Positions 11,967 through 63,536 of a stretch of DNA of 64,000 nucleotides are shown one piece after another. Position numbers and translations under genes: made by a program. The notes beneath the pieces were generated by a model. It worked only from the letters and a program-made list of their open reading frames with translations, was not told where the DNA came from and searched no databases. Within the stretch, counting starts at the first letter, position 1, and every line of letters begins with the position of its first letter. Origin of the DNA: Vitis vinifera (Eukaryota; Streptophyta; Magnoliopsida; Vitales; Vitaceae); assembly GCF_030704535.1 (NCBI RefSeq), contig NC_081822.1:10471001-10535000 (forward strand), read 5' to 3'.

Positions 11967-13299
11967 ATGAGGAAGCTGTGTCCGAATTTTGACAAAGAAA
12001 ATGGGCTGGAGACAGTGCTGGAGGTGCCCATTCCAGAGGAGATGTTCAAGAGCATGGGCAGCAATGTGGCCCTGAGATGGCAGAACATGCGTGCTTTCAT
12101 GAAGGGGCAATGTATAGATAAGGCTTCCCGCCTGTCGGATGGATGTGGCCCTGAGTTTCGGTTATTGCTTAAACTTGTTGGCTCTCCTCTTATCCCCGTT
12201 CAGGTTCCCTTGGAGTATGGAGCTACTTTCCCTATCAAAGATTGTTCTATTGTGAGCTATATTATTCTTTCATAAATCATCTCTCTGTTTTTTCTCAACA
12301 CAATTAGAGATTTGATAGTAAAAGCTATTTTGTAATTACGAATGGAACGCACGTACAGGAAGCTTCGACGGCAAAGTATATAGTGCAACAATACATAGCG
12401 GCAACGGGAGGGTGGGCAGCATTAAATGCAGTGCACAGCATGTACGCGGTGGGGCAGGTCAGGATGATATCATCGGATATGAGCGAGGGCGAGGAAAGAG
12501 TCGACCCCAAAGGCAACGGTGAAGTTGGTGGGTTCGTCCTCTGGCAAAAGAATCCCGACTTGTGGTACCTTGAACTCGTTGTTTCCGGTTGCAAGGTCAG
12601 CGCCGGTAGTGACGGAAAAGTAGCCTGGGGTCAGACCTCCTCTCAAGCGTCTCACGCTAACAGAGGCCCTCCAAGGCCTTTGCGCCGCTTCTTTCAGGTA
12701 CGTACGTACATAAATGTATCTTCTCTCAAACCCAACGAAAAATATAAAATAGGAAATTAAAAAGAAAGGCCTGATTTCATTGTGTGATGTATGTATCTCA
12801 TTAGGGGTTGGACCCCAGGTTTACAGCCAACCTATTCCTAGACGCAGTGTGCATTGGAGAGAAGACCATCAACAATGAAGACTGTTTCATTCTGAAGATG
12901 GAGACGAGCGCCAGCGTCCTCAAGGGGCAGAGCACGCCCAAAACGGAAATCGTTCACCATACCGTGTGGGGATACTTCAGCATGCGAACTGGGCTGCTCA
13001 TACAGTTCGAGGACACAAAGCTAGTAAGAATGAAGGCTGTCAAGGGAGAAGAGAGCGTGTTCTGGGAAACGAGTCTGGAATCCGTGATCGAGGACTACAG
13101 ATACGTGGACGGCATCAATATAGCCCACGGCGGTAAGACCACTGCGACTCTGTACAGATACGGAGAGGCGTCAAACCACAAGAGAAGGATTGAGGAGACG
13201 TGGGGCATTGAAGAGATTGATTTCAATATATGCGGTTTGACGATGGAGTCCTTTCTGCCCCCTGCTGATCTCAAGATATATCAGGACGGTGGGAAGTAA
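11967..13299 (+). CDS. DUF620 family protein, 372 aa
   Basis: Three exons (11967-12251, 12359-12697, 12805-13299) of 285, 339 and 495 nt, all phase 0 with GT/AG borders, give 372 residues. Family hallmarks are the start MRKLCPNFDKENGLETVLEV, the segment KYIVQQYIAATGGWAALN at the start of exon 2, LWQKNPDLWYLELVVSGCKV, and the exon 3 block GLDPRFTANLFLDAVCIGEK through YRYVDGINIAHGGKT. DUF620 proteins are plant-specific and without an established biochemical role as far as I know. No signal peptide or membrane segment is seen, so a soluble protein is expected. The length is typical for the shorter family members and nothing looks broken. Confidence 0.92.
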
Positions 13300-13629: not shown

Positions 13630-13909
13630 AAGTGGTGTTTATTTTTTTACTTAACTTTAAATAGAACCTTAATGCTTAATACTGTTAAATATTAGGTTAT
13701 TTGTTTTTATAGTATTTTATTTTTATTAAATATTAAAAAATAAAGAAAAATTGTCATAATATTTTTTCTATTTAAAAAAAATTATATATATTTATTTTTA
13801 TTATTTAATAAAAAATTTATAATAAATCATTAAAAAGTAAAAAAATAAATAATTTAAAATTTAAAAATAAATTACTTTCAATAAAAAACCAAAAAAACAA
13901 ACATCACTT
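13630..13909. mobile_element. MITE, about 280 bp
   Basis: The left end AAGTGGTGTTTATTTTTTTA is inverted at the right end as AAAAACAAACATCACTT, giving terminal inverted repeats of about 25 bp around an AT-rich, non-coding core. It lies 330 bp after the DUF620 stop codon. Confidence 0.5.
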
Positions 13910-14446
13910 AAGTTCCTTTTGGCCATCCCGTGATTAAAAGTTTTAAGTAGATAACACGACTTGACTAGTCACGTTTTTTATGTCGAGCCTTCTTTGATGG
14001 AACTGCCTAGTTGGGTCATAATTTTGGCCCAAGCCTCCTTTACTGGTCCACGGGCTGGGCTTGGCCCACTGCTGATAATTCCTAGTAGGGAGTGGACATT
14101 GAAAGAAGAATAATTTTCACGGTAGCCTCTGCAATTATCTTCCAAAAAATCAGATAATATTTCGAAATTAAGAGCATACAAAATATTTATAAAATAATAA
14201 ATAAAAATAAATGAAATCCATTTAATATTTATAAAATTTTAACCCAAAAATCGTTAAATTTAGCCCGAAGTTATATTCAATTTACTGCTGACGTTTATTA
14301 AATTCAAATAATATGATTAAAATATTTCAGGCAAATGACTACTTTTATCCCAAAAACCCCAGGCGCCGTTTTTCACACTTATCCATCGAAACGCGTCGTT
14401 TTATCTCAGAACGCGGAACCCCCCACAAGAGTCGGTCTATGAAGTA
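13910..14446. other. Upstream region of the snoRNA locus
   Basis: No gene is supported here. TGGGCTTGGCCCA at about 14056-14068 is a palindromic pair of TGGGCC/T (site II) elements of the kind bound by TCP factors in promoters of ribosome-related genes. It lies about 400 bp before the snoRNA TATA box. Confidence 0.35.
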
Positions 14447-14483
14447 AAACCCTAATGGTGCCAACCCCTATTTAAAACCCTAG
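14447..14483 (+). promoter_or_regulatory. snoRNA cluster promoter: telo boxes and TATA
   Basis: AAACCCTAA (14447-14455), TATTTAAA (14469-14476) and AAACCCTAG (14475-14483) lie close together. Telo boxes next to a TATA box are typical of plant ribosomal-protein and polycistronic snoRNA genes. Transcription would start near 14500 and run through the four snoRNAs ending at 16015. No protein-coding frame is seen in the transcript, so it looks like a dedicated non-coding precursor made by RNA polymerase II. Confidence 0.65.
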
Positions 14484-14993
14484 CACGTTAGTTCTCTTCA
14501 CTTGCCGCCTCTGGTTTGGGGTTTCGATTTCATCTCTCTGTTCCTTTCCTATTCTCTCCTTGGTGGGTTTTCAGCCTCGATTTTCTTTCGTTTCCTCTCT
14601 AGATCCGTGTGTGAATGCATAGTTAGTTTTACATGAAATGCGTGATTTCAAATCCATGGGGATTTGGAAGAATTTCGTTATAATGTTTGATTTCAAATCG
14701 AAGGATTTGAAGAATTTGATTATCTGTGTGTTTCATATGAAATGCTTGATTCCACTTCCATAGATTCGAAGAAATTGATCCTATGTCTTGCATTTGTTTA
14801 CCCTCTCCTGATGCAGCTACTTTAATGGCTAAGGAGATATAATGGATGCAGAAAGCAAGAGGTTGGCTTACCAGCCCATTGCGCACTCTGTATTGCATTG
14901 AGGTCAAATGGACCTACCGAAATTCTCTCCTTTCGGTGATTTTACTTTATTAATTTTCATTTGCTTGATCTTTATGATATTGTTGTTCCGAAT

Positions 14994-15074
14994 GGCAAAT
15001 GATGAGTATGAAATCTTATCCTACACACTGATCTTGAACTGTGTTGACTACTACTCCGCTTATTATCTGATGCC
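14994..15074 (+). ncRNA. Box C/D snoRNA, double guide for 25S rRNA (copy 1)
   Basis: C box ATGATGA at 14999-15005, D' box CTGA at 15028-15031, and D box CTGA at 15067-15070, closed by a terminal stem GGCA/TGCC (14994-14997 with 15071-15074). The guide before D (CTCCGCTTATT) is complementary to AATAAGCGGAG near the 5' end of 25S rRNA. The fifth base before D points to the U of AAUAAG (U48 in Arabidopsis numbering, from memory). The guide before D' (CTTATCCTACACA) is complementary to TGTGTAGGATAAG, which I recall as 25S sequence in the region of yeast Um2417/Um2421. It should direct 2'-O-methylation by the fibrillarin complex in the nucleolus. Confidence 0.85.
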
Positions 15075-15392
15075 TTGAAATTTTCTTCTTCCTAATGTTC
15101 TTGTTTCTCTTTTTTGGCCGAACTTCTTCTGGAATCATCAATCATCTATCTATCTATCTTTTTTTATTCCTTTGATGGTTTTTTTATATTCGTTTTGGTT
15201 TTTCAATCAGAGAGATTGTCCTCTGATTGAATCTTCTCAACTGATTCTTGCACAACCGTGGCAATTTGGATGTTTTCATTTATTTTCAATAGCATTTATT
15301 GGTGGAAAAAAAATACATTGTATCAAGTTTGTTGATATAGCAAGCCTGCTATAAACAGCAAGCTATAGATCAGAGACATTTGATTTGGAGAA

Positions 15393-15467
15393 GGCAAATG
15401 ATGAAAATAGTCTTATCCTACACTCTGAAGTTAATGTAGACTATAACTCCGCTTATTATCTGATGCC
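15393..15467 (+). ncRNA. Box C/D snoRNA, double guide for 25S rRNA (copy 2)
   Basis: A paralogue of the snoRNA 400 bp upstream. C box ATGATGA at 15398-15404, D' box CTGA at 15425-15428, D box CTGA at 15460-15463, and the same terminal stem GGCA/TGCC. Both guide stretches (CTTATCCTACAC before D' and CTCCGCTTATTAT before D) are kept, while the spacer between them has diverged and lost about six bases. That pattern is expected if both guides are under selection. The D' guide differs from copy 1 only at the base next to the box. Confidence 0.85.
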
Positions 15468-15736
15468 TTCTATCTCCTGGTTAAGAATCCAAGTATTTTC
15501 CTTTATTCTTTTTTCTTTTCTGTTTTTTTCTCTGAAAATAAATTTCATCGTTATTAGCTGTTTTTCCTTTTTGTTATTGAAACACCATGATTGCTGTGAT
15601 ATGTGTCATTATTAATTGCTATAATCCTCCTGTATGAATGAGATCACCTGAATGCTGTGAGCTCTCATGAGCTGTAGTGGAGGAATTTGACCACAAGTAT
15701 AGCCCATTTAGGTTTTTACATTTTTGCTTAAAAGAA

Positions 15737-15826
15737 CTCGATGATGAGAAAAAGCAGACGGGCGGTCTGAATCTGATGCCGTGTTGATTGTCTGCAAAGT
15801 TCCACTTGTGGAATTTCTCTGAGAGG
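15737..15826 (+). ncRNA. Box C/D snoRNA with 18S guide (U43/snR70 class)
   Basis: C box ATGATGA at 15741-15747, D' box CTGA at 15767-15770, D box CTGA at 15819-15822, with a short CTC/GAG closing stem. The guide before D' (GACGGGCGGT) is complementary to ACCGCCCGTC near the 3' end of 18S rRNA. The fifth base selects the C after ACCG, which I recall as the site methylated by human U43 and yeast snR70. TTCCACTTGTGGAA before the D box can fold into a small hairpin, and no second target is evident. Limits are approximate by a few bases. Confidence 0.75.
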
Positions 15827-15939
15827 GCATCCAGTGTTTTTTTCTTTCTTTCCGCATTTCCCTTTGTTGATTGATTTTAATTTAAAACTGAATTGAATTG
15901 ATAGTCAAATAGAGAGGCAGCAGCACTTGTTTGATAGAA

Positions 15940-16015
15940 CTGCTATGATGAGGTGCTTTATTTATGTCTGGACATATGAAGTTTGTCTATGATTTGTTAT
16001 GCATCTTCTGAGCAG
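15940..16015 (+). ncRNA. Box C/D snoRNA, guide target not recognised
   Basis: C box ATGATGA at 15945-15951 and D box CTGA at 16008-16011, closed by the stem CTGC/GCAG (15940-15943 with 16012-16015). A weak D'-like TCTGGA lies at about 15967. The stretch before D (TTTGTTATGCATCTT) does not match rRNA I can recall, so it may be an orphan or target another RNA. Size (76 nt), box spacing and position at the end of the cluster all fit a true snoRNA. Confidence 0.7.
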
Positions 16016-16471
16016 AAAGCATGTCTGGTTTCTAATTTGGACATTTTTTAATTCTTTCCATCCTCTCATTTCACTCGCATGTTCTCTATTCTAGTTTTTC
16101 TTCTGTCGGCCGTTTGGCTTCATAATCTCCTCAAAAAGCAACCTTCGGAATGCTGGAAAATGGTTTCTACTCCGATTTCATGTTAATAAAAAAAATAAAT
16201 AAATCAGATTACCTTTAGAGATGCCAAGAATTCCAATTAGATTATTTTATCAGTAAGATTTTTGTCCTTCATGAATGGAACTATGAATATATTAACTACT
16301 CAAAAATTTTACAACACAAGTCTCTAGACCTCGAAGAGAGAGGACAACTCTCTTTTGTTGTTCAAAAAATAAGCAAAAAAAAAAAAAAAATCTCTTAGAA
16401 ATTGCCGCCTCCACTTTTAAAAAATGGGTGGGGTTGGATCGGTTCACTTGGACACTCAAATCCATTTCAAT

Positions 16472-16612
16472 TCATGTGACGTAAATAGTGATATTATTAT
16501 GATGGACTCACGGTTTCCTCCTATTTCATCTTTTTGAGTTGGACTCATTTGACATAATTAGTAATATTCATCTTTTTAGGATGGACTTACGGTTTCTTCC
16601 TATTTCATTGAA
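16472..16612. repeat. 73-bp diverged tandem duplication
   Basis: Two copies starting at about 16472 and 16545 share a TCAT(G/T)TGAC(G/A)TAA start, then ATGGACT(C/T)ACGGTTTC and TCCTATTTCAT. Several substitutions separate them. Confidence 0.65.
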
Positions 16613-17586
16613 ACATGTGAACCAAAACAGGATTTTTGGAATGAGAAATGGACTTTGGATTTGAAGCGATAGTCACTTGTCTTCGTCTCTTTTCAGAAAA
16701 TTCCAGGAAATATAACCCCGTCTTGCCTGAGGGGCCGCTGACAATGGATTATTTATGTATTAATAAGAAAGAATTTTGGATTATCTGCTTGGAGCTATTA
16801 TAAATTCTCGCGTGGTTGTGCGGTCAGATTTAGGATGTGATTCCCGGCCCCTTGTTTGTGTCCATGGTTGTGCAGTCAATATTCCCACCACCTTCGGATT
16901 CTTCTGGTCGGCTATTTCCAGCCATGGAGAGAATAGTTCACTTTCTTGGACTCAAAATTCAAAAACACTCAACCCACAGAACTGGTAATCGAGATTAAGA
17001 ATACTGGTGTTTCACATGCGATTTATTAGATGAATAAACCAGAGAAACGAGGAAGCTAAAGTTTAGCACCGTTTTAAAATAGGTCATATTTTTCTAAATG
17101 AACTAGAAACACAAAGAGTCATGAGCAATTGTTTCAAATAGAATTTAGCACCGTTTTCGAAAGCTGGGATTGAAGTTTTTTCATTTTGATTTGTTTTAGG
17201 CCGCGTGCTTCTTCTAAGTGTTGTATCTTGTCTTTCGAGTGGTCTTAAATTGAATCATGTTTGGTTATATGATTAGTTATCATTTTGTAAAATTTTAGAC
17301 TTCGAATGCTTTTCTTGGAAAATTAATTTAAGATTGTAACAGGAGTTGTGGCGTGTGTCCAATGATAGAATTGTACCAATTTAAGGTGTTCTATCCTCAT
17401 TCCGTGATGTAGATTGAGGATCCTCCCTATCATTTAATGCAAAGTAAGCAACCAAGAAATATGTACGAAATATATAATATATTTTGTTTTATGTTTATTT
17501 CTGCATGTCCTAATAAAATAATTTGATATTAATTTATGTCTTCCTTTTCTAATTGTTTTTAAAGATCGTTTAAGGTATGTTTTAGG

Positions 17587-18737: not shown

Positions 18738-19054
18738 GCTGGACGGGGGGTTGAGGTGTCCCCACTCGCCACTAGGTCGGTAGTTGGAAACTTGGAATGG
18801 GTTGAATGCGGTTGGTGTGGGGAGACAGAGAGATAGAATTATAGAAAGTCTTTTAGTGACCAACTACCCCTCCACCGTCAGTGTAGTACAAGACGCCAAT
18901 AATCCCGTCCCAACCATTCGACACTCATGTACACTCACGCTCATCTCTCTGTTTCTCACTCTCTCTCCCCAAAGGAATAAGGATAAGGGCAAAGGGGTTT
19001 GGAAATTTAGAATTTAGAATTAGATTGTAAGAGCAGGAAAAGCAGAGAGTGGAA

Positions 19055-20884
19055 ATGGAGGGGAATCCTGCGACCACAAGCAGTATGAAGATGCATAGCT
19101 CAGAGAGCGGTAACTCATTTGGGGGAAAAGGCGGGTACAAGTTCTGGGCTCTGGCGGCCATTCTCCTACTGGCCTTTTGGTCCATGTTCACTGGCTCCGT
19201 CACCCTTAAATGGTCCGCCTCTAACCTCTCCCGTTTCCCCGACGACATCGACTCTCCCACCCACGATGATCTCGACGTCCTGGTTGGCCTTTCTCTTCTT
19301 CTCTTTCTTTCTCCTCTTTTTATCTTTTGATGGTTGATGACTGATGGTTGTGGGCGACACTTGGCAGGAAGTGGAGGAGAGAGAGAAACTGGTGAGGTAT
19401 ATGTGGGATTTGTACACTCATACCACCACTTCCCGATTGCCACGTTTCTGGGAGGAGGCTTTTGAAGCTGCTTACATGGAATTGGCCAGCGATGTTCCCT
19501 CCGTCCGAAACGCCGCCGTCCTCGAGATTGCCAAGATGTCCTTGCGCTCCATTCATCTCCACCCACTTCCTCTCCATTCCACTGTTTGTCCCTCCCTTCC
19601 CTTTCTTCTTGTTCTCCTTCATTTTTAGGGTTTTTATTTATTTATTTTTTATTATCGTCTTTTATCCATTTTCTTGAATGGTTTGGGGGATTTTGGCAAA
19701 CTGTTACTGTCTAAGCTTGAGCATGATTCTCGATTACAAATAGTTTTGCAATGGGAACTAGGAGGGTTGGTTTCCTCTGCCCCCTGTTTGAATATCTATT
19801 TGCATTTGTGGGTAATTGGCCATATATTGAAATTTGAAACCAATATTTGTGTTTTAGGTTTGAATATTTCAAATTATTTTTTTTGTTTTACACCAAGATT
19901 AAGACAAAGGAATTTTAATGATAGCCCTTTCTTTCTTGTCACAATTTCATAATTTTGGTTACTTTTATCTAATTGTAAATCCAGGAATGTGTTTTCTTTT
20001 GTGTTCCTTATGAAATTGTAACTGCTCTTCTGTTCCTTACTTTCCTTTTCTTCTTTTATTTCTCCTTTTTGTTAGAAGACCCAAAAAAAAGTAAAGAGGA
20101 TGAATTGACATTCGATCATTCTTTTGTTGTTAACTGCCATTCAAAATCTGGTTTGAGTATGATCATATCTAATTTTTGTTGATTTTTCCTTATTTTGCCC
20201 AACTCTTTCTAGAATTATGGTATTGTTTTAGGAGTGTCATAAGAAAGCATGTCCTCAAGAAGTAAGTTTTCCTTTCTCCTTTAGGTTGATACTCCCCCTT
20301 CAGATTATTCAGGAACATTATAATATTACATAAAATTCCTGGTGCACTGTAGACAGCACTCACAACTTGGGATATCAGTGAGAGGCTCTATGGCCAGACC
20401 CATGAAAATTCCATCCCATGTGGATCTGAGTCCATGTACCCTGTTATTTCCCCAAGAATACCTCCTTCAAGTGTGATATTGTCATTTTGGGAGAGGTTAT
20501 AAGGACATGGGTTAGGCTTTGGGTAAGAGGAATTTCGGGCTTCTAACAGTTTAGATGAAGGAAAAGGTGTGGAGAAAGTAGTTTCATTCATTTATTTTCA
20601 CAGCAATCAAGTAATAAATGTCTCATGTGACATTTGAAATCCCAAATAAGTTTTTTTTTTTTTTTTTTTTAAATGGTGTTGGGCAGGCATGAGGTTTATT
20701 GTGTACTATTAATGCTTTGCTTTATGACAGAAAGATGAAATTTCAGGTAATGAGATTCTCCAAGAATACAATGTTGATTTGCAGTCTTATTCTTATGCTT
20801 TTCCAGGGTAGAAGAGAAACAAGAAAGAATGTGAAGCAAGCAGAACTAGGGAAGGAGGTATCTGGTGTTAATAGTAGTCAATAA
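19055..20884 (+). CDS. DUF1195 family single-pass membrane protein, 173 aa
   Basis: Three exons: 19055-19282, 19368-19583 and 20807-20884 (228, 216 and 78 nt, all phase 0). The N-terminal 30 residues are hydrophilic. A single membrane segment follows at about 31-50 (FWALAAILLLAFWSMFTGSV), then TLKWSASNLSR and the acidic stretch DDIDSPTHDDLDVL. Exon 2 encodes EVEEREKLVRYMWDLY and LPRFWEEAFEAAYMEL...DVPSVRNAAVLEIAKMS. These are features I associate with plant DUF1195 proteins of about 175 residues; no function is established that I know of. The last exon (GRRETRKNVKQAELGKEVSG) was chosen by phase and a good acceptor and is the least certain part. The first intron is only 85 bp. Confidence 0.8.
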
Positions 20885-37100: not shown

Positions 37101-39629
37101 TCATTTCAACAGACAACAAAATTAAGAAATGGAGGATGATGAACAATGGAAGATAGCTGTATTGTGGACCATTAAAATTGTAATGCTGGTTTACTCTATT
37201 TTGATGAATGGTGAAGAAATCTGAGAAATGGGAAGAATAAACCCACTGATGTCATTTTTGTTGAGGAAAAAAGCTAATAGAGTGTTTCAATGGAAAACAA
37301 AATTAAGAAATGGAGAATAGTGGATATTAGAAGATGAAACATGGATCATTCTAATAATAATGTCAGTTTTTACTATATTAAAATATCTGCCCAACAAGTG
37401 ATATAGATGCATGATATTCGGCTTCTTATATGCCACCATAAAATTATGGAACCAACTTTCTGATTTTAGAGCATTAAAACTTTTGTTCTAGTCAAGTATC
37501 ATTCTCCCTGTGATGCAAAAGTGATGACAGTAGTGCAAATCATGGCTTTAGCTTCGGTTTCTAGCAAAAAAGCTACCCCAAACAAGGCATAATAGTGGAG
37601 GAGCTTGCAGGCACAATAAAAGAACTGACGATGAATACAAAAGAAAAGCAAAGAGAGGGAGAGAAGAAATAAGAGAAGAGGGAAAAAAAACGATTTAAGA
37701 TACAATCCAAACTATGGAACAATCAAATTTGGTGAAAATTCATTAAAAGAAAGGGAAAAGGAATTTGGCAACTGAACTTCTTAATTGAAGAATTTTAATA
37801 TGAATGGTCACTTCAAATTTTTAGGAAATCAAACCAAAAGGTCGGCTTCCTTGCAAAAAGACCATCTCAATGCTAATGAGATGAAGAGCTACTAGGACTA
37901 AATAAAATTATTACTAAACATTGCATGTATGAAATTGTTATTATGAATCCTAGGAGACATGAGTACATTTTGGTCAGGAAAACCTTCAAAGCAATGAGGA
38001 AAAGTAAATGTAAAGTACATTTGACAAGACAGTGATTGCCATGTGGCAATTGCAATGAAGGGTCAACTAACATGTGCTAGAATTACACTCATAGGGAAAC
38101 ATACTACATCAGTGCCACTGGTATGAGGCCATTTCAAATCTGCTGATGAATAGTTTATGCTCATTTTACCAACAGTTGCAATTCAAAGTAGTGAGAAAGA
38201 CACCCTCAACCAGTGGACATTCAGACAGCAAGCTGCTTGTCACCTGTAAATTCACTTCATCCTTTCACTTTTAAAGCCCAGCTGACTATTTACATTCCCT
38301 GTTTCTAAAGAACAAATTAATATTCCAAAAATACTGCCATAAACAATGGCCATTAATTTAATTTTACTCAGTTACTTGGTACACAATACCATCAAATCAT
38401 TAAATGATTTTTCTACTGCAGAAGCCACTTCAATTCCTAAAATTGTCTAAAATCATAAAAATTTAGGCACCTCTCTCTTAACAGAAAATGCTACAATGTT
38501 GATCTGTTTGAAAGTCCTAGCTGTAGATACTCCTAAAGGCTAAACCCTAGGTATATGTTATTTATATAGCATTTACATTTAACAAATCAATAGAAAATAA
38601 ATAAACAAATAAAGCAGAAGCATTTTGAGCTAAAAAAAAAATGAGATAATGCAAGAGTTGAAAAATAAAGGATTTTGGAGAATATGGCAAAGGTGAAATT
38701 AGACTCCACAGGTTCATCATATGTGTCACAGAAAGTTTGGGACAAACCTCTCCGGCTTGCAATGCAAGTAAAATTTTATCACAAAGAGGATGTGGCAAAA
38801 TTCAAGATTACAGCTTCCAGTCAAACCCACAACATGATATTGTAATAGAAAATAAAGCAAACATGAACACTTGGGTGCACAATAAGAGGGAAATTTACTT
38901 CATTTCTTGACTCTAGCCTGGAAACCGTTATGTACATATTTTAGTGGCATATTATCAATGAATCGCCTTGTTATAGATACCAAACTGCTAATACCCAGCA
39001 ACTGATTCAAAAGAAACAACATGCAAAGAAGATAATGATAAAAGTCTATTTCCCGTGTAGCGAAACATAGGAGTTTATAATAACATAAACCACAACACGG
39101 ATATTCACACCAATGTGTGCGACAAAATTGACTGTCTGTTTACACTTACTCCCAGTTTGCTTTTTGAGGATCAAAAAATTTAGACCTAAAAGAAGAGTCC
39201 TGACAACGAAACACGTTCCTAGCCCCATTTTAATCATTTTTCTTTCCTTTTTCTACCATTTTTCCGAGAACCAAACGAGTTAACCAAAAGTGACGTGACT
39301 TCAAAAAGAAACAAAACCCTAAATACATGCATTCCACCAAAATCAAAAAGAGACACGCTTAATCAACCAAAAGCACAACAAAATCTACAGTGTCAGTGTC
39401 GTGGAGAAGAAACCGAGAAGGACGACAGTTCAAATCTCGGCGATAGATTAGGGTTTTGTGCAAGAGTACAAGGGTAGAGCAGGAAATCAAGTTGTGAGGA
39501 CAGATGTTCGAGAATCAAAGAATAGATTAAAGGTGAGAAATTTAAGAATGCAAAACTACCTTTGGAGATCTGGTGAGGAGTGGTGAGGGTAAGGTTATGA
39601 CGAGAATCGGAATCAGTGCGGTCAGCCAT
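22104..39629 (-). CDS. EXA1: GYF-domain, eIF4E-binding protein (EXA1-type), 1836 aa
   Basis: Ten exons on the minus strand, high to low: 39560-39629, 36754-36842, 35641-36555, 35434-35551, 35157-35348, 34125-34919, 31269-33963, 22787-22980, 22648-22707 and 22104-22486. They sum to 5511 nt with every phase consistent. Start is [20 protein letters not shown]; an in-frame ATG at 39671 would add 14 residues. YNRTKLL (309-315) fits the eIF4E-binding pattern YxxxxL-hydrophobic. The GYF domain (about 587-645: [15 protein letters not shown]...WFEAGYFG) binds proline-rich ligands. The Gln/Leu-rich middle and the C-terminal block ([17 protein letters not shown]...[13 protein letters not shown]) match plant EXA1/PSIG1 from memory. 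Those proteins act in the cytoplasm in translational repression, immunity and potexvirus susceptibility. Intron 7 is 8.3 kb and swollen by insertions; the coding sequence looks whole. Confidence 0.92.
24178..24961. repeat. 397-bp tandem duplication in EXA1 intron 7
   Basis: The segment starting at 24178 is repeated starting at 24575 with only scattered substitutions and small gaps (for example CATACTCCGCATAT versus CATACTCCACATTAG). Both copies end with TTTATAGGACTGGTTT. High similarity makes this a fairly recent tandem duplication. Confidence 0.85.
25488..29492 (+). mobile_element. 5'-truncated, decayed L1-type LINE in EXA1 intron 7
   Basis: Plus-strand LINE, antisense to its host gene. It starts inside the endonuclease domain ([17 protein letters not shown]-like), continues through reverse transcriptase ([13 protein letters not shown] near 27325; [11 protein letters not shown] near 27483) and the zf-RVT region (about 28790-29350), and ends in a poly(A) tail at 29478-29492. 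It is flanked by AACAATGACGGATT (25474-25487) and AACAATGACTGATT (29493-29506), a 14-bp target-site duplication with one mismatch. Frames are broken by many stops and frameshifts. It is related to, but far older than, the LINE at 52472-58845. Confidence 0.9.
28176..28829 (+). repeat. 327-bp tandem duplication inside the LINE
   Basis: TATGATTTAGGCAATGGAA recurs at about 28179 and 28506, and the following 320 bp, including GGTGTGGGGACAC and GAGTACCTCTTTCCCC, is repeated with few differences. The duplicated part lies between the RT and zf-RVT coding regions and is not a known LINE feature, so it probably arose after insertion or in the source copy. Confidence 0.85.
30420..30970. mobile_element. 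Small insertion with TG..CA ends, possible solo LTR
   Basis: A 551-bp segment beginning TGGGGGGAAG and ending CCTACATCA is exactly flanked by CTAATTGA at 30412-30419 and 30971-30978. It holds a TATA-like box (CTATAAATAA near 30652) and three degenerate units of about 28 bp with core TTAGTTGGAATTAAA (30482-30570). TG..CA ends suggest a solo LTR, but an 8-bp flank duplication is long for that class and fits hAT elements better. Family unresolved; no coding content. Confidence 0.4.
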
Positions 39630-41251
39630 GGATGATCGGCGAGAGTTGATGAGAGAGATTGGAGACGCCAAACAAACCCTTTTGCTCTGATTTTGCTTCG
39701 CGAGTTGTGAGAGAGAAATGAGGAGTGGGGGAATATAGGTTAAGGGCTTGGGTTGGATAAAAGGGATGCGAGTAGGTTAAAACCCTATGCACCTGCGGCG
39801 TAACTTAGCCTCCCCCGTGAGTTTAATGTCTGACCCAATTTCCTCTTGGACGAGTTCCTATGATTCACGATGTATGACCTTCCACGCGCGATGACTGAGC
39901 GTGTAGCCGGCTCACGCGATGGAAAGACCTAATCAACCCGAGAGATTGACCGTGTCGGTGTGCCGATGATTATAGAAGTGCTTCACACGCGATGGAATGG
40001 TGCGATGATGCGTAATTGTACACTTTCCAACCTTTCTTTCTCCTATCGGTGGGTGCGCACTGCGCCACGGGCGGCGCAGCTTAAAGTGACGCTATGACTC
40101 GCACCGAGAAGCGTTTGATCAGTTGGTAGCGAGGGAGTGATCCGACGGCTACAACGACCGAGATAAACACGTGTCATGCTTGCGTAATCTTTCTGCATCA
40201 TTGGCTTTTTTGTGACGGTAACCCTAGCCTCCAATGGGCTTATTTTAGTTGTTATTTTATTTTATGTAATTTAAATTTTTTTATTTTAAATAAATTGAAA
40301 TACTGATATTTCGAAAATATTCTCACCATGTCCGTTCTAATATTTTGACGAGAAACGTGAGCTTTTAAACCGCCAATTTAACATCAATAAAATTACTATA
40401 AAATTAAATATAAAAATATTTCTGAATATAATTTCAAGCATATGACGACATAAAATCTAAAACAACCTATACACGTGTCAACATTGGATTATAATAACTT
40501 TAATATTTTGTATTATGTGCCGTATAAAAAAATAAAACAAAATATAAAATAAAATTATCGTAGAGTTTAAAAAGAAACCAACTATATAAATAAAAATAAT
40601 GTAGGAAAATTTTAGTTTAAATTTGAATTTAATATCAAAAATAAAGATAATATTAATTTTAATAAAGTTATTTTTTAATTTGTTCTACGAGTCACTCTAT
40701 ATTCATAAAACTTATATTTTGACGTTTTCATATAAATTTATAATCTTTTATCTTTTTGCTAAAACCAAAAAATAAAACTTATCGTTTTATCATTTTTCAT
40801 TAAGATTATCCTTATAAATTTACACTTTTTATATTCTCATTAAAACAAAAAATACATTGTTACACCATTGGTTAAACAGTTGCAAAAGTTATAACAATAT
40901 GAACTTGTTATTATCATTAATCATTGCAAAAGTTGTAACAAAACAAACTTGTTATTGATTGTAATGTGTAAAGTGAATAATAAAATATTTAATTTGAATT
41001 AACTTTTAAATATTATATATTTTATATATATTAAAATATGACAAAAATAATAGTAAATTTGGGATGATATGTAACAAAAATCAAAACAATTTTTTTTTTA
41101 AATATAACTAATTTTTTTACTTTTTAAATGTATTTTATTTGACATATATATATATAGAGACAGATATAAATTAAATTTTTTTTTTCTTAGAAGATAGGTT
41201 GTTTCTTAATAAATATAATTTATTTAGAAAAAAAAAACATGTCTTTGATAT

Positions 41252-41450: not shown

Positions 41451-43139
41451 GTATTAAAAACATAGAGTTAAACTTTAACATCAATCAATTCTAAAAACCC
41501 ATTAGATTAATAATTTAGAAACCTATCAGAGATTAATAGTCGATACAACAAACACAAAAATAAAATATAAAGTTATAAATCCTAGATTGTTAATAATAAT
41601 AAAATAAAAAAAGTATTATTACTTTTTATCCTTTGAAGCTGGATAAATTATTCAATTACTTGTATTTTGATCATAAAAAAATTAATAACTAATCATATAA
41701 AAAACAAATAAAATAAGTTACAATTTCAATCATGTAATAATAGCAACACTAGTTATATTTTTAAAAATTTATAACCATATATTTAGTTGTTATTTTAAAA
41801 ATGGTAATTGATAATTTTTATTAAGATATATATATATTTTTAATTGAAAAATGATAATGTCAATAAGACATATTCCCACCCAAACAAACCCCATACAATG
41901 GGATCGATAATTAAAAGGAACTTATATTTTTATAGTGTCAAAAACCTTTTTTTCTACTATTATATTTTAAAAAAATAATTTAATTTTACTATGCCTTATC
42001 CCAACTTTCTAACGAAACAATTAAATTTGGACACATAAATCCAACATAAAAGAGGCATGGGGCCAGCTTTTGGGCTAAGGAGATGCTGCTAAAAGTTTGG
42101 AATAAAACATAAATGCGGGTAGATAGATCAAACCCAACCCTAATTAATGTTCATATAATTTTGTCGTTACCACATTATTATTTAGGGAGTGACGCCTGGC
42201 TGGACCATGGCATAAGTATGTTGATGATGATTATTAGTCCATGTAATTTTAGTTATTACTCGTAGCATGTCTTTCCAGGTATCTCTTCTTGGTTTCAACC
42301 ATCCTTTTATTTACCCTTTCATCTGAATATTAACAATAGCAATCAGAATGTAAGGTTTTTTTTTTTTTTTTTAATATTTTATAAAATAAAAATCCATTTG
42401 AAATTTTGAAATATTATTAATTTATATCGTGTGTTTGTAAACGTGTTTCTAAAAATATATTTTATCATTTTATTTGCAATCATTTTTCATATTTGAAAAC
42501 TTAGTAAGATAGTTTCTAAAAAATAAATTAAAACGATCTTTTTAAAATAACAAAATCAAGTTGATAACCGTTGAATTATATTATCTATTTTATTTCTTTA
42601 TGGTGGGTTTGACTTGATATTTTATTATCTTTTAGTGGCGGATAAATTTAAATATTTTATCAAAAATAGTAAAATTATTTTGATAATTGTTCAAGTTATA
42701 TTGTTTATTTTATCCACCTTTCTTGAACATCCTCACCCAATATTAACGACATATTTTGATGAAATTTAAAAACGAGGGTTAGATATATTTAACTCAAACC
42801 CAAAGGTATATGAATTAAATAAAGTTTAACAAAATTGATTTACATATGAACACCAAATTACCAATGTGAATGCAAAATGAGAATTCATTTTGTTATTTAC
42901 TCATTTTTCTTTATGTAATTATATTAAATCACACTCAAATTTCAAATTCATTAATTAGTATTTTTATATATTTATCTCATTTATAAAATTTAATTTTTAG
43001 AGACATTATAGGTAAAATATTTTGGATACGAGTGTTTAACAAATTTTCTAAAATAAATTTTATTTTAAAATAAATAAAATCTATATACACATTATGATAT
43101 ACATCTATAGAAAGAGGTATTAGTCAAAAATTTGATACT

Positions 43140-44170: not shown

Positions 44171-45214
44171 CTCTGAATCGAACGATTCAAAGTTGTTTTT
44201 TTTTTTTTTCATCAAAACGAATATCTTCCCAATTCCCCTTACGACCCAACAAGCTTAACCTGTCGTTGCCTCCTCTTGCTCAATTTTCACACTCTCTTCC
44301 AATTACACCATTGTCATAGTACTATCGGATTCGCTATCGACAAAGAAATCGACAATCCTCCGAATCACTCAATGAAGTTGCAAAGTTGGAATATTGCATT
44401 TTATTTTTTATTTTAATATTCAATATTTTATTGCATATTGATTTAGTGAATATTCATTATTTATTATTTATCTTTATTAAATCAATTTAAATTTGAATCA
44501 TTTATACATTTTGTTCATATTTTATATTTTTGTTGACTTTATTTTTATTTATATTAATTTAAAAATTTTTAATTTTTTTTAATAATATATAAAATATATT
44601 TATAACATCACCTGTTTGACCATCTATCATATTCGTGAACTTATAATTTTTCCTGAGTTAATGAGCAATCCCGTTATAAAAACATTTTCATGATGTGTTG
44701 CAAATGGTTATCGATTCCTTTTTTCCATTTTTAAAGAGTATTGTGCTACACGCATCATCCCATTTAAATCATCAATGATAGACAAGTGATGATTGAAGGT
44801 TAATTTTTCTTTTATATTCATTAAATACAAAAGTTTATTGACACGTAATCACTATTGTATTTAAGGGTAATGATATGACGAATACTTTTTCATTTTTGAC
44901 AATTGAAATTATTTCGGAAAAATCCGGCTTTTATTTTCCAAATAGATCCACCCGAATCCCAAAACCCTAGAGCACAAACCCTAAATCCTCGTCGGGGCCG
45001 CTGGACTGCCCCGAGTTTGCAGGTTTCGAAACCATGGAAACGCTCGAGGCGTGGGCTCCGTCGTTGGAGGAACCGAATCGGACGATGATGTATTTGACCT
45101 TTTTCTGAATTGTCGCTTGTATCAGAGTTGGGTTCAGCCGCCGAAACGGTTCAGAAACGATTCCACTATGTTGGGCTGGGCATTTTTAGTCCGACCCATG
45201 AACCCATGTACTAT

Positions 45215-63535: not shown

Positions 63536-63536
63536 G

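Follow-up and report, generated by a model that had tools for sequence, protein, structure and literature searches.

Clusters in which snoR16 and U43 stand together have been described from Arabidopsis (snoR16.1-U43.1) and from rice (cluster 66, U43a-snoR16), and in the same sections of that source U43a is called restricted to the BOP clade (PMC5122169). The promoters of plant polycistronic snoRNA genes comprise telo-box, TATA and Site II elements, according to the passages of PMC4660826 that describe them. As for the targets, the entries of the Arabidopsis RiboMeth-seq study quoted here assign 25S U48 to SnoR16, 25S U2456 to SnoR16.1 and 18S C1219 to SnoR166, and list 18S C1645 for U43 (PMC8053127).

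A locus of this kind was identified in grapevine (Vitis vinifera), in the stretch of 64,000 nucleotides that was analysed as a whole and is referred to as the window, and with a probability of roughly 0.85 it is a plant polycistronic box C/D snoRNA gene containing two snoR16 copies, a U43-type snoRNA and a SnoR166-type snoRNA (Table 1). The snoRNAs share a strand and follow a telo-box/TATA promoter, and the reading is supported by two snoR16 matches in Rfam, by guides in the other two elements with the +5 base at mapped Arabidopsis 18S sites and by the presence of plant snoRNA promoter parts. The gene type had already been recognised in the original prediction, from which the names of the snoRNAs and the duplication of snoR16 were absent. 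The locus resembles the Arabidopsis and rice clusters in having snoR16 and a U43-type guide together but differs from them in that snoR16 is present twice and that a fourth C/D RNA follows, with a guide for 18S C1219; neither the duplication nor a C1219 guide behind U43 was found in the descriptions of snoR16-U43 clusters given in the cited sections of PMC5122169. With the TeloSII polycistronic snoRNA genes of plants, as characterised in the passages of PMC4660826 mentioned above, it shares a telo-box, a TATA-like box and Site II motifs within 1 kb and snoRNAs downstream, the differences being that Site II is situated ~400 bp above the telo-boxes and that one telo-box overlaps the TATA-like box. 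The locus is real but ordinary, one more example of the polycistronic snoRNA clusters known from plants. The understanding of plant snoRNA genes is unchanged by it, and what it adds is a further cluster whose snoRNAs can be named and whose guide assignments can be tested, among them a probable guide for 18S C1219 in the company of snoR16 and a U43-type RNA.

Table 1. Features of the grapevine snoRNA locus, in positions of the window
Feature	Position	Strand	Basis or remark
Site II motif (TGGGCY)	14026-14031	-	possible upstream promoter part
Site II motif (TGGGCY)	14056-14061	+	possible upstream promoter part
Site II motif (TGGGCY)	14063-14068	-	possible upstream promoter part
Telo-box AAACCCTAA	14447-14455	+	sequence, motif count
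TATA-like box TATTTAAA	14469-14476	+	sequence
Second telo-box AAACCCTAG	14475-14483	+	overlaps TATA-like box
Leader stretch, four successive predicted hairpins	14800-14945	+	-48.8 kcal/mol, z -3.84
snoR16 copy 1 (element 1), box C/D snoRNA	14991-15077	+	Rfam RF00296, 79.1 bits
Two predicted spacer hairpins directly before snoR16 copy 2	15320-15392	+	z -4.21
snoR16 copy 2 (element 2), box C/D snoRNA, 8-bp closing stem	15390-15470	+	Rfam RF00296, 84.6 bits
U43-type box C/D snoRNA (element 3), named by guide only	15735-15829	+	C/D scan, guide pairing
Box C/D snoRNA (element 4), probable SnoR166-type by guide	15937-16018	+	C/D scan, guide pairing
C/D elements 1 to 4, C-D scan spans	14999-15070, 15398-15463, 15741-15822, 15945-16011	+	Watson-Crick stem scan

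When scanning both strands of the whole window for RTGATGA and CTGA boxes joined by a closing stem of at least three Watson-Crick pairs (offset at most 1), four matches appeared, all on the plus strand within 14991-16018, in agreement with the four snoRNAs originally placed in 1.0 kb of one strand. Dinucleotide shuffles of the window (n = 60) contained on average 0.52 such matches and at most two, as against the four observed, and none of 2000 shuffles of the locus reached three. Admitting G-U pairs in the stem gave the identical four elements, the window shuffles then having a mean of 1.2 and a maximum of 4. An initial, looser scan (stem of at least four pairs including G-U, offset at most 2, longer spacing) returned five matches, namely three of the four locus elements (the third was missed) and two outside the locus, at 1354-1478 and 42224-42326. 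RUGAUGA and CUGA joined by a terminal stem are present in all four elements, with closing stems of 4, 8, 3 and 4 pairs in elements 1-4; the earlier description as canonical is accurate for the boxes in every case and generous for the stem of the third element, which is just 3 bp long. At the Rfam gathering cutoffs the window has three matches, two of them snoR16 and one a tRNA, so the proposed check against snoRNA covariance models came out positive for two of the four elements, the third and the fourth lying below every Rfam cutoff. A tRNA-Glu (anticodon TTC) is located at 63536-63608 on the minus strand.

Elements 1 and 2 are, judged by the covariance model, members of the snoR16 family, since they surpass the curated cutoff of RF00296 (45 bits) by 34 bits (copy 1) and 40 bits (copy 2). 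Both align over the full length of the model, from which they differ by small indels in either copy and by one non-standard stem pair in copy 1. Over 87 columns copy 1 and copy 2 share 81.6% identity, and BLAST at E 0.01 found no similarity between them outside the snoRNA. In both, the D guide can pair with the Rfam LSU consensus over 12 bp, with 25S U48 as its predicted target, a site that is altered in the rDNA locus L002; in a fragment that we take to represent the Arabidopsis 25S sequence, the D guide pairs over 11 bp and nucleotide 48 is at the +5 position. With a predicted target at 25S U2456, the D' guides of the two copies match GGUGUAGNAUAAG of L005 and L006 apart from one internal mismatch, which in both copies falls at a base that was left open in the pattern used for retrieving L005 and L006; in these two sequences the base 38 beyond the U2456 site is U, as the listed U2494 demands. 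L002 (1-3398), a contig assigned to the genome of a Pseudomonadales bacterium, consists of eukaryotic rDNA (SSU end, 5.8S, LSU), i.e. contamination. A 21-mer of the snoR16 in the window was not found in the viral contigs searched. One viral-labelled contig (L001, 1-300) starts with eukaryotic LSU rRNA (Rfam match 3-188), apparently continuing into unrelated sequence, perhaps an rDNA-inserted element.

In the third element the D' guide (15757-15766) can form 10 Watson-Crick pairs near the 3' end of the 18S in L002 and has its +5 position on the C of ACCGC, and this site (CCGCCCGUC in the 18S) is taken as the U43 site corresponding to C1645 in Arabidopsis. Rfam gave no U43/SNORD43 covariance match for the element up to E 10, the best snoRNA family scoring 14.4 bits, and it is therefore called U43-type by its guide only. 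The likeness to the U43 guide of 18S C1645 lies in the D' guide and the +5 position, while the element differs in having no Rfam match to the U43 family and in a small predicted hairpin just 5' of box D, its overall fold being ordinary (z -0.73).

Taken alone, complementarity to rRNA is weak evidence for guide function; 57% of random 14-nt guides had a run of at least 10 (G-U counted) in the rRNA searched, and of 4000 shuffled guide sets per core, 209, 803 or 848 gave at least as many matches as were observed, according to the core used. The assignment of guides relies on the +5 base at mapped methylation sites, and by this criterion all four elements have, upstream of D or D', a putative guide with the +5 base at a known 2'-O-methylated rRNA position, complementarity per se being not significant. 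The numbering of U48, U2456 and C1219 is based on fragments taken to represent Arabidopsis rRNA or on spacing. The guide matches in L003-L006 are partly by construction, because the patterns with which these sequences were retrieved contained most of the target sites; L003 and L004 were confirmed by Rfam as SSU, and L005 and L006 are presumed LSU sequences.

The telo-boxes and the TATA-like box proposed upstream of the snoRNAs are indeed present, beginning at 14447, 14475 and 14469, and given the TATA-like box, transcription would be expected to start near 14500. The telo-box motif AAACCCTA is enriched in the whole window (14 occurrences against 3.1 expected), two of the 14 being those at the snoRNA locus. 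The motif is also grouped at 39314-39787 and at 44962-44983, where it may point to additional growth-type promoters. Site II is only mildly enriched, with 65 motifs in the window against 50.6 expected, and its assignment to the promoter is weak since 4 of 100 shuffles reach the count of 65. Promoter motifs prove little, because 24 of 26 promoter-predicted snoRNA genes were not expressed according to the relevant part of PMC8053127. The absence of a coding frame was borne out: the longest ATG open reading frame in 14485-16100 is 59 aa, which is chance level (shuffled mean 60), and neither the four stop-to-stop frames of at least 60 aa nor a 35-aa frame of the locus gave a Pfam match at E 0.1. 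Outside the locus, matches to DUF620 are found upstream (12308-13299) and to DUF1195 downstream (19031-19628), both on the plus strand and each split over two open reading frames as if by an intron.

The identity of the fourth element is where a different interpretation has most to be weighed. Its guide at 15963-15973, located 5' of a degenerate D' box (ATGA, 15976), forms 11 consecutive Watson-Crick pairs with the 18S in L003 and L004, and the same 11-bp pairing is seen in a fragment that we take to be Arabidopsis 18S; when the +5 base is set as C1219, each of the six Nm positions listed from C1219 through G1275 falls on the correct base in this fragment. The element is probably a SnoR166-type guide of 18S C1219, which it resembles in the predicted target, the comparison being one of targets. 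It could also be an orphan or a diverged snoR24, and for this speak the degenerate D' box (AUGA in the RNA), the D-box guide, which has no convincing target in the rRNA pieces searched, and the best of its Rfam matches, to snoR24 (20.4 bits, E 0.1, cutoff 38). That match is non-significant, for which reason a snoR24 identity was rejected, and the guide of snoR24 is lost in the Rfam alignment of the element, whereas the uninterrupted pairing with 18S puts the +5 position on a mapped methylated C; an orphan or diverged snoR24 is accordingly unlikely, though it retains a small share of the probability. A pairing of the D-box guide with LSU GGAGUGUGUAACAA was rejected as well, having one mismatch and several G-U pairs.

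Two further interpretations concern the locus as a whole. The snoRNAs could be intronic in a spliced host gene, non-coding or encoding a short peptide, and be released by splicing and debranching, and a fair acceptor (TCTCCTGATGCAG, 14816) does precede a more G+C-rich island at ~14800-14949. The best donor in the locus, however, scores 6.7 of a possible 12.0, a level that is reached on average 2.3 times in every 1.6 kb of a single strand of the window, and a candidate donor of the DUF620 gene scores 10.5; the test and its matrix are crude, and the best site near the end of the DUF1195 exon scores merely 5.9. As no strong donor was found in the locus the intronic arrangement is less likely, and we regard it as highly improbable. 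The functional cluster might instead reside at another site in the genome, with the present locus as its decayed or unexpressed copy, as could be suspected from the low Rfam scores of the third and fourth elements, from the frequent lack of expression of promoter-predicted genes noted above (PMC8053127) and from the several paralogues that are usual for plant snoRNA families in the portion of PMC5122169 concerned with them. Against decay stand the C box, D box and stem, kept in all four elements, the two guides that both snoR16 copies retain despite 18% divergence, and the promoter motifs, and a duplicate of this sort also seems very unlikely.

For the polycistronic snoRNA gene, RNA polymerase II would transcribe the plus strand from the telo-box/TATA promoter near 14450-14500, and from the common strand, the spacing and the promoter we infer a single precursor, starting near 14500 and carrying the two snoR16 copies, the U43-type and the SnoR166-type snoRNA. 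Each snoRNA would be cut out of the precursor and then trimmed. In Vitis vinifera the resulting fibrillarin snoRNPs would be expected to guide 2'-O-methylation at 25S U48 and U2456 with snoR16, at 18S C1645 with the third snoRNA and at 18S C1219 with the fourth.

Such a precursor would also contain predicted structure outside the snoRNAs. None of 200 shuffles of the leader stretch (Table 1) folds as well as the stretch itself; z is just -1.86 for a longer cut (14780-14929), and the leader and spacer cuts in the table were both selected after scanning 63 windows. For 14790-14950 Rfam gave no match up to E 5, for the wider interval 13800-16800 it gave, with E limited to 1, C/D families only, and no trusted hairpin-H-hairpin-ACA arrangement of an H/ACA snoRNA was seen in the spacer folds inspected by eye. 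The leader hairpins may be processing signals or an extra RNA, and there is a slim chance that, besides the four snoRNAs, the precursor contains an undescribed structured ncRNA as its fifth RNA, predicted from folding, which would correspond to the leader and be co-transcribed with the snoRNAs. An analogy is offered by the HID1 ncRNA, co-transcribed with a snoRNA cluster in Arabidopsis according to the part of PMC8053127 that mentions it. HID1 itself was rejected as an identity for the leader, the fit being limited to the idea of co-transcription. The structured leader is the sole part of the locus that could lead to something new. The two spacer hairpins, for which a longer cut (15241-15390) gives z -1.02, may be processing signals.
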